From: Thiomicrorhabdus indica
GTDB taxonomy: Bacteria; Pseudomonadota; Gammaproteobacteria; Thiomicrospirales; Thiomicrospiraceae
NCBI RefSeq assembly: GCF_004293625.1
Contig: NZ_CP033040.1
Coordinates: forward strand, 992,001-1,056,000
Reading direction: 5' to 3'
Length of the DNA: 64,000 nt
The position numbers and the translations under genes were made by a program. Shown piece by piece: positions 14,531 through 19,808 of the stretch. The notes under the pieces were generated by a model. That model did not search any database and was not told the DNA's origin. It saw only the letters and a list, made by a program, of their open reading frames with translations. Numbering within the stretch: position 1 is the stretch's first letter; each line of letters begins with the position of its first letter.

Positions 14531-14560
14531 AAAAAAACCCAGCTTGTGCTGGGTTTTTTT
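14531..14560. terminator. Bidirectional terminator between serA and the cytochrome operon
   Basis: A7-CCCAGC-TTGT-GCTGGG-T7: a T run follows the stem on both strands, serving both convergent units. Confidence 0.9.
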
Positions 14561-14578: not shown

Positions 14579-14674
14579 TTAGTTTACAACGGTAATCGTA
14601 CTTAGCCACCACATGAGTGCGATGGAACCGAAAGTGAGGATGAGTCCCCAAACAATTGCTGTTTTTCCGTTCAT
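14579..14674 (-). CDS. 31-residue single-span membrane peptide, candidate small oxidase subunit
   Basis: It starts MNGKTAIVWGLILTFGS and continues IALMWWLSTITVVN: one transmembrane helix with a Trp pair at its outer end. The ATG overlaps the stop of the dihaem cytochrome gene as TAATG and has AGAGGAG 6-8 bp upstream, so it is very likely translated as the last gene of the operon. In known bd oxidases a peptide of about 30-40 residues (CydX/CydS type) is the small third subunit; the context suggests a comparable role, but I see no clear sequence identity. Confidence 0.7.
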   Translation of the reverse strand: MNGKTAIVWGLILTFGSIALMWWLSTITVVN

Positions 14675-15390
14675 TATTCCACTCCTCTAGGTTTGAGCTG
14701 TGCGTAGTAGTCAGCCAGCTGTTGGATCTCTTCATCGGTAAGATCCCTAGCAAACTGAGCCATACCTGACATCACATCATTGTGACGAGTACCGTCGCGA
14801 TAAGCTTCCATATGTCGAATAAACATACGTGGACTCAGGTTGGTGAGCGCAGGGGTTTCATTCATGCCGCCTTCACCATGAGCACCGTGACAAGAAGCGC
14901 AAGGCACAATCATACGTGAAGTATCACCCTTAGCCACTAAACGAACAATCTCAGGTGCGACATCGACTTCTTTTTCGATGTATTGCGCATAAGGTCGTTC
15001 TTGTGCTGCAAAATAAGCGGCCATGTCAGCAAGATCTTGGTCATTGTAAATTTTGACCAGGTTGACCATGACATCGGATTTGTGATCCACAATAAAGCGT
15101 CCAGACTGATAGTCTTTTAACATTTTGTAGGTGTAAGTCGCATTTTGTCCAGCCAGACTCGGCGTGGCTTGGGTTGGATTATTGCCACCGACACCGTGAC
15201 AGCTATAGCAATAACCGTCATTGGCTAGTTTTTCACCGCGAATAATATCGCCTTCTGGCATGTTGTTTTTCGCCTCAAGCCATTCAGACATTGTCCAAGG
15301 CTCAGAGTGCGGCATATTTGGGCTTGCCATGGCTGAACTCATTCCTAGAACACTTAAGCCAGTGGCGATTAATAAAGCCTTAATTTTCAT
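14674..15390 (-). CDS. Dihaem cytochrome c, c4-like, exported
   Basis: 238 residues with a Sec signal peptide (cleavage about residue 22, after AMA). Two haem c motifs are present: CYSCH (61-65) and CASCH (164-168), each in a class I-like domain, as in cytochrome c4 or dihaem FccA-like subunits. It is a periplasmic electron carrier. It follows the FCSD flavoprotein gene by 19 bp, so it probably receives electrons from sulfide oxidation and hands them to the bd-like complex or another oxidase. The order and partners are inferred from the operon. Confidence 0.85.
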   Translation of the reverse strand: MKIKALLIATGLSVLGMSSAMASPNMPHSEPWTMSEWLEAKNNMPEGDIIRGEKLANDGYCYSCHGVGGNNPTQATPSLAGQNATYTYKMLKDYQSGRFIVDHKSDVMVNLVKIYNDQDLADMAAYFAAQERPYAQYIEKEVDVAPEIVRLVAKGDTSRMIVPCASCHGAHGEGGMNETPALTNLSPRMFIRHMEAYRDGTRHNDVMSGMAQFARDLTDEEIQQLADYYAQLKPRGVE

Positions 15391-15409
15391 AAATCGACTC
15401 CTGTCCTAA

Positions 15410-16708
15410 TTATTCAAACATATCGCGACGGAAAGCACGTTGCCAGTTCATAGCAAGTGAAGCGCGAATATGGTGAAGTCCGTCATTGTCTAATTCAGTC
15501 GACTGATGACCGTACTGTTTAACGATTTTTCCATTTTGAACGCGGAAAGTATCCGTGATGGTCATACCGTAGTCTTCACCCGTTAGTGCCACACAGTTAT
15601 TGGTGTATAGCGGTTGAACCGGCGGTTTACCTGCAAATTCGTTGACAATCGATTGTGCAACGGCCTTTGAATGGTTAGATGCCAAATAGCCGGTTTTAAC
15701 CATTGGGCTAGACTCTGTAGTATCACCGACAACATAAACGTCTTTATCAACGACTGAGCGATAGTCAATTGGGTCAATCGGTACAAATGTTTGACCTTGG
15801 GTTAGGCCTGTGTCTTTCGTGAACTGAGCCGCTGAATGGTTTGGAATAATGTTGATGACATCTGCTTTAATTCGTTCACCATCAGCGGTCACCAATGCGT
15901 GGTTTCCAACATCAAGCTGAGTAACTTTTCCACCTTGTTCCATTGGAATCCATTCAACCATGGCGTCTTTGGTTCCGAAGCCACGACGCTTGGTCCAGTA
16001 GTCAATGTAATGCTTACGGAAAGTGAAACTGTTTTTAGAATCCAGAATCAATACTTTCGCTGTCGGGTTGTGGTGAGACAACCATTCGGCAATAAAACTG
16101 GCACGCTCATAAGGTGCCGGTGGGCAACGATATGGCATAGGAGGTGATGAAATCGCAACCACACCACCTTGCTTCATTGAGTGAATTTGCTCACGAAGTT
16201 TTAGAGTTTGTGGCCCCGCCTTCCAAGCGTGAGGAAAATCGCCATCTGCTAATTCTTTTGAATAACCTTCAACCGCCTCACAGTCATAAGAAGGGCCTGG
16301 AGAGACGATTAACTTGTCATATTTGATATAACCGTTTTGTGCCGTTTTGACTCGTTTACCTGTGTAATCGATATCCGTCGCTTTATCTTCAATCAGATTG
16401 ACCGCATAACGCTTTTTGAAAGCGTCATAAGTCATTGTCAGCTCATCAATTGAAACAAAGTCATTCAAGACTTCGTTTGAACCCGGACAGAAAACATATT
16501 CTTTATTCGGTTCGATAATGGTGATTTTGACATTCTTATCTAAGATTCGAAGATACTTAGCAGCGGAAACACCACCAACACCACCACCAACAATAACAAT
16601 ATGCGGCGCAGTTTTTGCAAAAGCCGCTTTTGATGCACCAAATAGCCCAGTTGTTAGGCCGGCTGCACCCATGTATTTAATTAATTCGCGGCGTGTAAAA
16701 TTACTCAT
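15410..16708 (-). CDS. fccB: Flavocytochrome c sulfide dehydrogenase flavoprotein subunit
   Basis: 432 residues. The N-terminus FTRRELIKYMGAAG is a twin-arginine export signal. FAD-binding GGGVGG (41-46) follows. The two cysteines forming the redox-active disulfide in FCSD are at MPYRCPPAPYERA (C195) and TNNCVALTGEDYG (C372). It oxidises sulfide to sulfur or polysulfide in the periplasm and passes electrons to a c-haem subunit. Its start overlaps the upstream monohaem cytochrome by eight bases, so this pair probably forms an FccAB-like enzyme. SoxF is the close alternative. Confidence 0.9.
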   Translation of the reverse strand: MSNFTRRELIKYMGAAGLTTGLFGASKAAFAKTAPHIVIVGGGVGGVSAAKYLRILDKNVKITIIEPNKEYVFCPGSNEVLNDFVSIDELTMTYDAFKKRYAVNLIEDKATDIDYTGKRVKTAQNGYIKYDKLIVSPGPSYDCEAVEGYSKELADGDFPHAWKAGPQTLKLREQIHSMKQGGVVAISSPPMPYRCPPAPYERASFIAEWLSHHNPTAKVLILDSKNSFTFRKHYIDYWTKRRGFGTKDAMVEWIPMEQGGKVTQLDVGNHALVTADGERIKADVINIIPNHSAAQFTKDTGLTQGQTFVPIDPIDYRSVVDKDVYVVGDTTESSPMVKTGYLASNHSKAVAQSIVNEFAGKPPVQPLYTNNCVALTGEDYGMTITDTFRVQNGKIVKQYGHQSTELDNDGLHHIRASLAMNWQRAFRRDMFE

Positions 16709-17093
16709 ACTGGCCTCCTTTCAACACATTCTCTTCTTTCCAAGGACGGTCTGTTTGAGCTGCAAAGTAATCTGCCATGCGCTCAATTTCATCGTCTGTA
16801 AATACTTTGGCAACATGATTCATAACAATCGATGGGCGGACTTCATTTTTAAAGTCTTGCATCAATTGGATAAAAACATCACGTGGAATGCCCGCCAAAG
16901 GTGGCATTGATTCATCGTAAAAGCGTCCGAGTGTTCCATGGCAAGCTGAGCAGTTATCGCCTAACATCTTACCTGGGATTTGTGGATCATTTGCAAAGTC
17001 CTCTGGTGGCATTAAGGCACCCGAAGCTTGAGCCTGCGACATTCCCACTAGGGCGGAAGCAGAAAGTAATCCGATCATTAATGATTTTTTCAT
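16701..17093 (-). CDS. Monohaem cytochrome c, FccA-like
   Basis: 130 residues with a Sec signal peptide (AQA cleavage about residue 23) and one haem motif CSACH (48-52). The C-terminal half has FTDDEIERMADYFAAQ, the usual last helix of class I cytochromes. It overlaps the FCSD flavoprotein gene by eight bases and is the likely cytochrome subunit of that enzyme. The upstream bd-like subunit ends 10 bp before its start, so all are one transcript. Confidence 0.85.
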   Translation of the reverse strand: MKKSLMIGLLSASALVGMSQAQASGALMPPEDFANDPQIPGKMLGDNCSACHGTLGRFYDESMPPLAGIPRDVFIQLMQDFKNEVRPSIVMNHVAKVFTDDEIERMADYFAAQTDRPWKEENVLKGGQYE

Positions 17094-17103
17094 TCCAAAC
17101 TCC

Positions 17104-18354
17104 TTATTGAACCCAAGTGTAGATACCGATTGCGAAGAACTGAATCATCCATAAAACTAGAATCCAGATTGCAACTGTACCCATTTTGTTGACGGTCGCA
17201 CTTGGTGTATAAACACCTTCGGTTTGACCTGCTTTCCAAGCAATGGTTAGGTAGTAAGCGAGTACTGCTCCACCTACGATGGCAAAGGTTAAGAAGAATA
17301 GCCCAGTAGAGTACCAGTCCATCACCACTTTGTAGTCAAAGAAGTTGTAACTAAAGAAACCGTTTAGGATGTCATAGCGAAGAATCTCACGAGAGATGGC
17401 AACCACTAATCCGATGACCAGTGCCATTGGCAATGCCATGTAACTACACATATCTTCAGATTTGCCATTTAGGCGAACTTTTGCCCAACCAGCATAAGCC
17501 AGTACCGCAACACCACCTAAGATTCCCCAGAATGAGGTGCCGAAGTTTCCTGCCGTTTCTGGAAGCGTCATCATCCAAGCAAAATACAAAACAGTTGAGA
17601 TAACAGAACCAACTAAAATCCATTTTTTACCGACTTCAGCAGCGAAGCGTAGGTAGTCTTGGTCATAATCACTACGTACCATTTTAAAACGACGGTAGGT
17701 TACAAGCATTGCACCAGTGACAGGGATTGCCATTGAAATAAAGAATGCATAGCGCCAAACATTATAGGCATGCAAAGTATCACCACTGTAATCCATTTTG
17801 CCATTTTGCATGTACCACTCTTTCCAAAGCTCAGGGTGAAGGATCTGTGAAGTTAGGCTGTGCATAATGAAACCAACCAGCAACATTAAACCTAAGCTTA
17901 GAATCAAAGACCAACGGGATTTTGGCTCGGCAGTCTTGTCTTCTCGCTTATAGTTTTGGAAATAGAAGTAGTACATAGCCCAGTATGCAAAGATCAAAAT
18001 AATGATGAATGCAATAACCCAGTCGGCTGACAGTACGTTAGAAGTGTACCAGTGCGGATCGTAGACTACTTGTACAAACAGTAACGGAGCCACGCCGATA
18101 ACAATGGCCACCGAAACGGAGACCTTGGCAATATCAATCATGGCCGCACCCAGTTTGCGCCAATAAGCGTTGTTGGTATAGGCGGCATAAAGTGCGACAG
18201 CAGAAGTTCCTAGCATTAACTGCACAAATAAAATGTGCATGGCAAAGGTTAGAACTCCAAGTGCAATAAAGATAACCGGATAGGTTGGTACCCCTGCTGG
18301 GTTGCGCAGGGCGTACATCATTTCGGTAATTTCAGCGATATTTTGCGCGTCCAT
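17104..18354 (-). CDS. bd-oxidase-like membrane subunit II
   Basis: 416 residues and about nine membrane helices, beginning ALRNPAGVPTYPVIFIALGVLTFAMHILFVQ. I see no haem c motif. It follows subunit I with a one-base TAATG overlap and must be its partner, in the position of CydB. Sequence similarity to canonical CydB is not obvious by eye; it looks more like a second CydA-type helical bundle with its own N-terminal His (residue 40 in FAMHILFVQ). So the complex may be a pseudo-symmetric dimer. Function inferred from the partner. Confidence 0.65.
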   Translation of the reverse strand: MDAQNIAEITEMMYALRNPAGVPTYPVIFIALGVLTFAMHILFVQLMLGTSAVALYAAYTNNAYWRKLGAAMIDIAKVSVSVAIVIGVAPLLFVQVVYDPHWYTSNVLSADWVIAFIIILIFAYWAMYYFYFQNYKREDKTAEPKSRWSLILSLGLMLLVGFIMHSLTSQILHPELWKEWYMQNGKMDYSGDTLHAYNVWRYAFFISMAIPVTGAMLVTYRRFKMVRSDYDQDYLRFAAEVGKKWILVGSVISTVLYFAWMMTLPETAGNFGTSFWGILGGVAVLAYAGWAKVRLNGKSEDMCSYMALPMALVIGLVVAISREILRYDILNGFFSYNFFDYKVVMDWYSTGLFFLTFAIVGGAVLAYYLTIAWKAGQTEGVYTPSATVNKMGTVAIWILVLWMIQFFAIGIYTWVQ

Positions 18355-19808
18355 TATTTCGTCTCCTGTACATCAAGAGCGGCGATTTTGTCTTCAGCAT
18401 CTTTTTCAGCTAAAGCACGGTTACGTTGCTCAATTTCAATGTCAATCGCTGCCGATACGGCGGCCTGACCACCATCGTTATTCATTACTAAGAAGGCAGC
18501 AAGCGCTTCTGCTTCAGAATCAAGCATTGGCATTTTAGGCATATAAGCAATGTTACCAGTGGTAAGAACACCTTTTACATATTGCTCCATGCGTGCTTGT
18601 GAAGTCCCTTCAGGGAAGTAACGATGCAGTGGACGAATTCCTGTTTCAGAAGGTGAGTGACAGTTCGAACAGTAAGTCATCGCAATGAATTCACCGGCTT
18701 GAATTTTATTGCCAGCATTTACTTCTTTTAGATGATCCGGTGTGAAAGGGTGTGCTTTCAAAATACCGACTTTTTCAATAATCGGTAGTTGAGATTGAAT
18801 ATCCATACCAGGGACATCTTTACCGATGACTTGGTTAGAGTAGACATACTGACCAGCAACCCAAGGCTTACGCATTGACTCACGTGCGGTCTCTTCTGGC
18901 CATAGGCCGGCAACCAAAATAATGATCGTCATTGCACCGGCAAAACCTTGCACAATCATTTGTGGACGAAGCATAGTGATAATGAAATAGGCAAGCGTAC
19001 CAGCAAGTACAATCATAATGCTTGGACCAAAGTAGTCAGGCAGACGGTTTTCCATAACCAATAGCGCTTGGTCGGGAACAGAAGCCAAATACATTTGGAA
19101 GAAAGAAGCACCGGCAATCGTTGCGATAATCCCTAGCCAGCCTAATTTGCGAGCCATCTCTTTTTTGAATGCTGGATCTTTAATGCCAGCAATCACGATT
19201 CCACCTACAACAGCAGTCATAGTGAACATGAAGGCAATACGCATACCCATTTGAATAAAGGTGTTAGTGCCGTAGAAACCATTTAGGTATCCACCTTCAG
19301 CAAACCATTGTTCTTTACCTGGCATCATCATAAACGACAAGATACCGATGATAATTACCATAGTGGCAAGAGAAGAGATACCGAAAATAACCGCGATTTT
19401 CATGTGAGTGCGCTTGTCCACTTTCCCGACAAGATAGACCAACATATAAACACCGACGACTTCGATGACGAAGAAGACCCACTCAGTTGCCCATTTCCAA
19501 ACGAATGAATGAATCAGCGCACCAATCCCGTTCGGGCTAGCAACTGTTGTCGAGTACCAAATACCAGGACCTGTGATGGAACCGGCAACATAGGTAAAGA
19601 CCATTAAGAAAAGACCGTATTTCTTAACAAAGTCAAGAAGGTCGTCGCGATCCTCGCGATAGGCCTTGTGTGAGAGATAAGCGAAAAGCATTGCTGCACC
19701 AACCGAGGTGTGCGATGCCAACACATGGAACGTTGCAATGAGTGCAACGACCCAACCAGAACCGACAGTCGGTTCGTACCACGTTGGATAAAGGCTAATC
19801 AAATCCAT
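18354..19808 (-). CDS. Cytochrome bd-like subunit I fused to a C-terminal cytochrome c domain
   Basis: 484 residues. About eight helices occupy residues 1-305 with CydA-like marks: an N-terminal His in ATFHVLASHTSVG (H28), and ATEWVFFVIEVVGVY (E109, E116) followed by LVGKVDKRTHMKIA, the counterpart of the CydA helix 3/4 region. The quinol-binding Q-loop of CydA is not seen. A C-terminal cytochrome c domain carries CSNCH (380-384) with likely Met ligand at 424 or 427. This resembles the bd-superfamily branches proposed to take electrons from cytochrome c rather than quinol. Ribosome binding site is GAAGGA. First gene of the operon. Confidence 0.75.
   Translation of the reverse strand: MDLISLYPTWYEPTVGSGWVVALIATFHVLASHTSVGAAMLFAYLSHKAYREDRDDLLDFVKKYGLFLMVFTYVAGSITGPGIWYSTTVASPNGIGALIHSFVWKWATEWVFFVIEVVGVYMLVYLVGKVDKRTHMKIAVIFGISSLATMVIIIGILSFMMMPGKEQWFAEGGYLNGFYGTNTFIQMGMRIAFMFTMTAVVGGIVIAGIKDPAFKKEMARKLGWLGIIATIAGASFFQMYLASVPDQALLVMENRLPDYFGPSIMIVLAGTLAYFIITMLRPQMIVQGFAGAMTIIILVAGLWPEETARESMRKPWVAGQYVYSNQVIGKDVPGMDIQSQLPIIEKVGILKAHPFTPDHLKEVNAGNKIQAGEFIAMTYCSNCHSPSETGIRPLHRYFPEGTSQARMEQYVKGVLTTGNIAYMPKMPMLDSEAEALAAFLVMNNDGGQAAVSAAIDIEIEQRNRALAEKDAEDKIAALDVQETK

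Follow-up and report, generated by a model that had tools for sequence, protein, structure and literature searches.

A cytochrome bd-like subunit pair with a fused haem c in one operon with a sulfide dehydrogenase in Thiomicrorhabdus indica

In a 64,000-nucleotide stretch of the Thiomicrorhabdus indica genome (contig NZ_CP033040.1, positions 992,001 to 1,056,000; referred to as the window), inspection of the open reading frames (ORFs) revealed an operon of six genes on the minus strand, from position 19808 to 14579 (Table 1). Two membrane proteins resembling CydA of the cytochrome bd oxidases are encoded together with a flavocytochrome c sulfide dehydrogenase (FCSD) and further cytochromes c, and the products probably form a respiratory chain from sulfide to oxygen. 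An original prediction, made from the sequence alone, had described six tightly joined genes in the same direction. All of these ORFs are present, and in the 5′ to 3′ direction they are separated by a 1-nt overlap, a 10-nt gap, an 8-nt overlap, a 19-nt gap and a 1-nt overlap.

Table 1. Features of the operon region and further FCSD genes of the same genome. Positions refer to the window unless stated otherwise.
Feature	Position	Strand	Basis
Subunit I, CydA-like with C-terminal haem-c domain	18354..19808	-	484-residue ORF
Subunit II, second CydA-like protein (CydA'-like), no haem-c motif	17104..18354	-	416-residue ORF
Monohaem cytochrome c with export signal, FccA-like partner of the flavoprotein	16701..17093	-	ORF
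FCSD/FccB flavoprotein with Tat-type signal	15410..16708	-	FCSD_central, E 7e-37
Dihaem cytochrome c, cytochrome c4 type, exported	14674..15390	-	two CXXCH motifs
Single-helix membrane peptide, 31 residues, possible small accessory subunit	14579..14674	-	codon-position bias
Intrinsic-terminator hairpin AAAAAAACCCAGC-ACAA-GCTGGGTTTTTTT, T run	14531..14560	-	sequence and folding
Further FCSDs (L147, L148, L149)	genome contig C1, ~661, 2088 and 2455 kb		

Subunit I has eight predicted transmembrane helices with the N-terminus outside, a topology which places its haem-c domain in the periplasm, on the same side as all donors. The haem-c motif at the end of the protein, already noticed in the original prediction, is C380-S-N-C383-H384 (CSNCH, residues 380–384), and Met423 is the likely sixth ligand. 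Both the CXXCH motif and Met423 are invariant in the homologue alignment, and all 58 relatives of subunit I give a Pfam match to a cytochrome c domain. For the membrane parts of both subunits no direct sequence match to PDB chains was obtained. The Pfam family Cyt_bd_oxida_I (PF01654) matches 41 of the 58 relatives at E-values up to 1 (best 1.2e-5). The subunit I family aligned weakly by hhalign with the single sequence of Escherichia coli CydA, and an alignment with 31 CydAs brought a modest gain (E 0.0011, probability 21%). Because the hhalign matches to CydA are weak, membership in the bd superfamily rests on fold, on motif conservation and on the Pfam matches of the relatives. The AlphaFold2 model of subunit I is most similar to ten CydA structures (Z 17.7–20.9 over about 300 residues, root-mean-square deviation about 4), which are followed by ACIII and PsrC (Z 14–16); the fold ranking thus begins with CydA and not with a non-oxidase family, the alternative considered in the original prediction. 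Assignment of the membrane subunits to the NrfD/PsrC/ACIII family was rejected, as Z was 14–17 compared with 18–23 for CydA and as the haem-site residues are invariant.

Ten residues of subunit I are invariant: H28, H33, E109, E116, E310, R313, C380, C383, H384 and M423. By hhalign, H28 corresponds to H19 of E. coli CydA. By motif spacing, E116 corresponds to E107, each being located 19 residues before a His, and E310-S-M-R313-K-P-W to E445-Y-G-R448-Q-P-W. H28, E116, E310 and R313 are found in 59 of 59 core sequences and, apart from a single E116D exchange, also in seven outgroups. E109 is a likely counterpart of E99, though one residue off in its spacing, and H33 is a further invariant His. 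The b558 ligand H186 is gone: no His occurs anywhere in transmembrane helix 5 (residues 181–206), where residue 186 is Gln in the window protein and 56 others, and where Arg190, close by, does not vary. The loss was judged from this absence of any His, as the hhalign mapping of H186 is unreliable. Thus, the retention of CydA-like His and Glu residues claimed in the original prediction is borne out for the equivalents of H19, E107, E445 (and also R448). For E99 it depends on a shift by one position, and it does not extend to H186. The lack of a quinol Q-loop, noted in the original prediction, is confirmed: the loop between helices 6 and 7 comprises only about 16 residues (244–259), and no counterpart of the quinol-binding Q-loop residues K252 and E257 was found in subunit I. 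Lys105 is present in 59 of 59 FCSD-linked sequences and in none of the seven distant FCSD-free homologues. The residue pattern suggests that the O2-reducing site has been kept and that a covalent haem c replaces electron entry via quinol and b558, the haem content being predicted from the sequence.

Subunit II, which the original prediction had implicitly taken for a CydB, is a CydA-like paralogue of subunit I according to both hhalign and fold. The two families align with a probability of 94% (E 9e-8, 20% identity over 263 columns), whereas hhalign to E. coli CydB gave no match, and the CydB assignment was therefore rejected. For the AlphaFold2 model (predicted local distance difference test score, pLDDT, 87.5) the top PDB chains are the CydA chains of ten bd entries (Z 21.6–23.3, about 345 residues, root-mean-square deviation about 4.5). 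In the rankings of both subunits ACIII and PsrC follow CydA with Z 14–17. Foldseek also returns CydB chains for subunit II; CydA and CydB have a common fold. Invariant residues are H40, H165, E323 and R326, of which H40 occupies the position of the active-site His of subunit I; E323 and R326 are likewise retained, while the pair E99/E107 is, as judged by eye, not kept. Both membrane subunits are therefore CydA-like.

The flavoprotein matches the FCSD structure 1fcd_A with an E-value of 2e-86. Its redox cysteines C195 and C372 are conserved in 66 and 65 of 66 homologues, respectively, and the FAD-linking C74, present in the window protein, is found in 32 of the 66. This covalent-FAD Cys thus occurs in about half of the cassette FCSDs, is replaced by Pro in most others, and tracks the FCSD clade. 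The monohaem cytochrome c gives weak matches to c-type cytochrome families, and its gene adjoins the FCSD gene at nearly all homologous loci. The dihaem protein matches cytochrome c4 structures (E 1.6e-21). At one locus (L094, 6178–4373) subunit II continues at its C-terminus into a dihaem cytochrome c domain, which argues that the dihaem protein belongs to the complex. The 31-residue membrane peptide named in the original prediction is a real coding sequence, since differences among 19 relatives are concentrated at codon position 3 (121/94/322 at positions 1/2/3). It is restricted to the Thiomicrospira group; elsewhere no convincing counterpart was found downstream of the dihaem gene. Its match to the CydH model is weak and below the cut-off (E 0.033, 14.1 bits, cut-off 30).

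A scan of a genome collection revealed 60 homologous loci, a set biased to near relatives because the window protein served as query and including several metagenome-assembled genomes with tentative names. The genera are Thiomicrorhabdus, Hydrogenovibrio, Thiomicrospira, Sulfurivirga, Halothiobacillus, Guyparkeria, Thiothrix, Thioalkalivibrio, Marinobacterium, Thiomonas, Thiobacillus, Hydrogenophilus, Sideroxydans, Rubrivivax and Roseospira. Judged by the operon locus, Thiomicrorhabdus species are the nearest relatives (subunit I 91%), and about 10 of 369 surveyed gammaproteobacterial genomes contain true homologues. The gene set including FCSD is intact at all 54 loci with enough flanking sequence, from gamma-, beta- and alphaproteobacteria, and is therefore not a matter of chance; the other six (L020, L042, L055, L057, L063 and L065) are truncated where the contig or the locus stops. 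The commonest order is subunit I, subunit II, monohaem c, FCSD, dihaem c, while in Halothiobacillus and Guyparkeria the monohaem c and FCSD genes come first in the cluster. No other gene was recurrent in the cassette comparison. FCSD is present at none of seven more distant homologues (L002, L093, L094, L095 and plasmid copies in Methylosinus, Thermus and Agrobacterium). The plasmid-borne copies of Thermus thermophilus and Agrobacterium (L145, L146) are annotated merely as cytochrome c or hypothetical protein. L002 (5657–10960; contig C1, about 173.7–179.0 kb) is a second oxidase pair of T. indica itself, 48% identical, with a monohaem c and no FCSD. It adjoins a divergent gene pair resembling a sensor kinase and a response regulator, and such a pair is also located beside the plasmid copies of Methylosinus and Agrobacterium.

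The link to FCSD is not only conserved across genera, it has also been re-formed with different FCSD clades. On the FCSD tree, the cassette FCSDs fall in several clades, with the solitary FCSDs of the T. indica genome lying between them. Among Thiomicrorhabdus relatives, whose oxidases are about 85–90% identical, members of two FCSD classes, A and B, are scattered over the oxidase tree (10 and 9 changes). Thiomicrorhabdus heinhorstiae has two tandem cassettes (L016, 3996–12454) with 100% DNA identity over the 2.7 kb of subunits I and II, a possible assembly effect. Their FCSD modules are of class B and class A, the latter assigned from a partial FCSD which is 57% identical to the window FCSD. 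This combination suggests gene conversion or a swap in recent times. In one metagenome-assembled genome the two classes are likewise present, on different contigs (L019, L070). The mixing may be explained either by repeated FCSD replacement or by gene conversion of the oxidase genes following an ancient duplication, and under either history one oxidase serves different FCSDs. The T. indica genome, a single contig of 2.83 Mb, encodes three additional FCSD flavoproteins; each has a c-type cytochrome of its own as neighbour and no oxidase. It contains one haem-copper oxidase subunit I, and no canonical CydA was found in it.

The operon stands alone, as it is flanked upstream by an L-isoaspartate methyltransferase gene and downstream by a converging 2-hydroxyacid dehydrogenase gene. 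The strong hairpin that follows the operon (-24.7 kcal/mol when folded in context) marks the operon end and may serve both strands. It was missed by the pattern scanner, probably since its T run is taken up into the stem. A promoter scan gave no score above that of shuffled sequences.

We interpret the operon as encoding a sulfide:cytochrome c:O2 respiratory chain with a c-type bd-superfamily oxidase that needs no quinone, and give this reading a probability of roughly 0.6. The FCSD, consisting of flavoprotein and monohaem cytochrome c, would face the periplasm and oxidize sulfide to sulfur or polysulfide. Electrons would pass to the fused haem c of subunit I, directly or via the c4-type dihaem cytochrome, and from there to b-type haems of the CydA-like core, where O2 would be reduced to water with cytoplasmic protons, as happens in cytochrome bd. 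The haem-c domain would take over electron entry from the quinol site and the low-spin haem b558, while subunit II would stand in for CydB structurally and may carry further haem. The idea of the original prediction that electrons from sulfide travel through c haems rather than through quinol is supported by gene linkage, homology, fold and retained active-site residues; O2 reduction, a single complex and sulfide as the physiological substrate are proposed. A bd-type core would make physiological sense through sulfide resistance, since E. coli bd oxidases tolerate 58 µM sulfide and bo3 is inhibited at about 1 µM (PMC4815019). A membrane-bound FCSD reported for Thiobacillus sp. W5 (Visser et al. 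1997, as cited in PMC5733100) is consistent with a membrane partner. With odds slightly short of even, the proteins may further form a respiratory supercomplex dedicated to sulfide:O2 electron transfer, without copper or any need for quinone; different flavocytochrome modules would be exchangeable on a single conserved c-type bd oxidase.

Several points weigh against this interpretation. The window subunit I alone stays under the Pfam cut-off for Cyt_bd_oxida_I (9.2 vs 26.2 bits), its AlphaFold2 model is of middling confidence (pLDDT 70.7), and the spacing of the invariant E109 to E116 differs by one residue from that of E99 in CydA. The haem-copper oxidase in the same genome could accept the electrons from FCSD. 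The gene cluster is evidence of a common purpose, not of a physical complex, and the subunit sequences may accommodate an alternative quinone site.

The main rival, which we consider improbable, is reverse electron transport: the CydA/CydA' pair would act as a cytochrome c-to-quinone reductase, moving electrons from the FCSD cytochromes to quinone at the expense of the proton motive force and feeding NADH formation in autotrophy. Such a role has been proposed for the bd-like relatives that accompany nitrite oxidoreductase in Nitrospina (PMC3578206). The host group grows autotrophically, and both folds resemble the quinone-binding NrfD-like subunits of ACIII and PsrC (Z 14–17). However, CydA structures outrank these for both subunits, the Q-loop and the known quinol-binding residues are absent, and the residues of the O2-reducing haem pair are invariant. 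That same invariance of the active-site His, Glu and Arg, complete in the 59 core sequences and nearly so in the seven outgroups, would be unexpected for a pure anchor, and homologues exist without FCSD. We therefore see little chance that the pair merely docks FCSD and passes electrons to a cbb3 oxidase without catalysis of its own, although the loss of the b558 site is a departure from canonical bd and the membrane-bound FCSD of strain W5 would suit such a conduit.

Two further explanations concern the substrates. The bd-like core might reduce another acceptor or a toxic molecule such as nitric oxide or peroxide, with sulfide as donor; canonical bd enzymes handle both as side activities, and the host has kept a separate haem-copper oxidase. 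A dedicated sulfide dehydrogenase and a dihaem c4 in the operon across sulfur lithotrophs point instead to energy metabolism, and the absence of any other recurrent gene from the cassette comparison also speaks against detoxification, to which we give a low probability, between those of reverse transport and of the anchor. At the donor end, the flavoprotein might act mainly on polysulfide, a thiol or a persulfide rather than on free sulfide, so that the chain would be a sulfur-compound oxidase of different specificity. Several FCSD clades occupy this position in the cassette, whether or not they carry the FAD-linking Cys, and three more FCSD sets are encoded in the genome. Nevertheless, both redox cysteines are retained in nearly all homologues, and we regard this as the least likely of the four explanations.

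A CydA core associated with haem c and lacking a quinol site characterizes the OR-C family of the bd superfamily, to which, judged by these features, the oxidase of the operon probably belongs. The operon shares with OR-C the CydA-type core with active-site residues, the lack of a quinol site and the C-terminal haem c (58 of 58 relatives), and adds a defined donor enzyme, partners and gene order, namely FCSD, a c4-type dihaem c and a second CydA-like subunit. Cytochrome c4 feeds the cbb3 cytochrome c oxidase, which resembles the proposed system in its c-type donors, the dihaem c4 and the logic of a high-affinity oxidase but has an unrelated haem-copper core. OR-C (Murali, Gennis and Hemp 2021), which is named in PMC13189123, PMC10839748 and PMC11707229, and OR-N are non-quinol bd-like families known from surveys (PMC13189123, PMC11707229). 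For the OR-N type a CydAA' composition, with two CydA-like subunits, has been proposed (PMC10839748, PMC12342949). OR-N of Nitrospira and Nitrospina (PMC3578206, PMC12342949) is similar to our operon in having two CydA-like subunits, no Q-loop and a lithotrophic dehydrogenase with c-type cytochromes nearby. Its donor, however, is nitrite oxidoreductase instead of FCSD, and OR-N-like proteins (L129–L131) are about 600–810 residues long and have separate adjacent cytochromes instead of a fused haem c. Membership of subunit I in OR-N was rejected, as it combines eight transmembrane helices and a fused haem c, compared with about 14 helices and no fused haem c in OR-N. E. coli CydAB (qOR1) shares the fold and the equivalents of H19, E107, E445 and R448, whereas the operon lacks the Q-loop, the b558 His and a recognisable CydB and has gained a haem c. 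FccAB (1fcd, 3vrd, 5n1t) corresponds in flavoprotein, redox cysteines and cytochrome c partner; in the operon, the FCSD is linked to a terminal-oxidase-like membrane complex and its partner is monohaem, not the classical dihaem FccA.

Our literature searches found no report of a linkage between FCSD and a bd-type oxidase; the primary survey (Murali et al. 2021) lay outside these searches, so that priority is uncertain. One published Guyparkeria genome was described as having FCSD, no sulfide:quinone reductase and haem-copper oxidases only (PMC6504805), and a related Guyparkeria strain carries the cassette (L047). Occurring across three proteobacterial classes, the cassette points to FCSD as the donor and to the c4-type cytochrome and fused haem c as the route, a proposal which can be tested in culturable strains. 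If electrons from sulfide do reach a relative of the bd oxidases via cytochromes c, a poorly understood branch of oxygen reductases would acquire a testable job. The respiratory chain of common sulfur oxidizers, in which FCSD electrons are assumed to reach haem-copper oxidases, would then have to be redrawn. If the supercomplex exists, respiration could continue in these organisms at sulfide concentrations too high for haem-copper oxidases to work.

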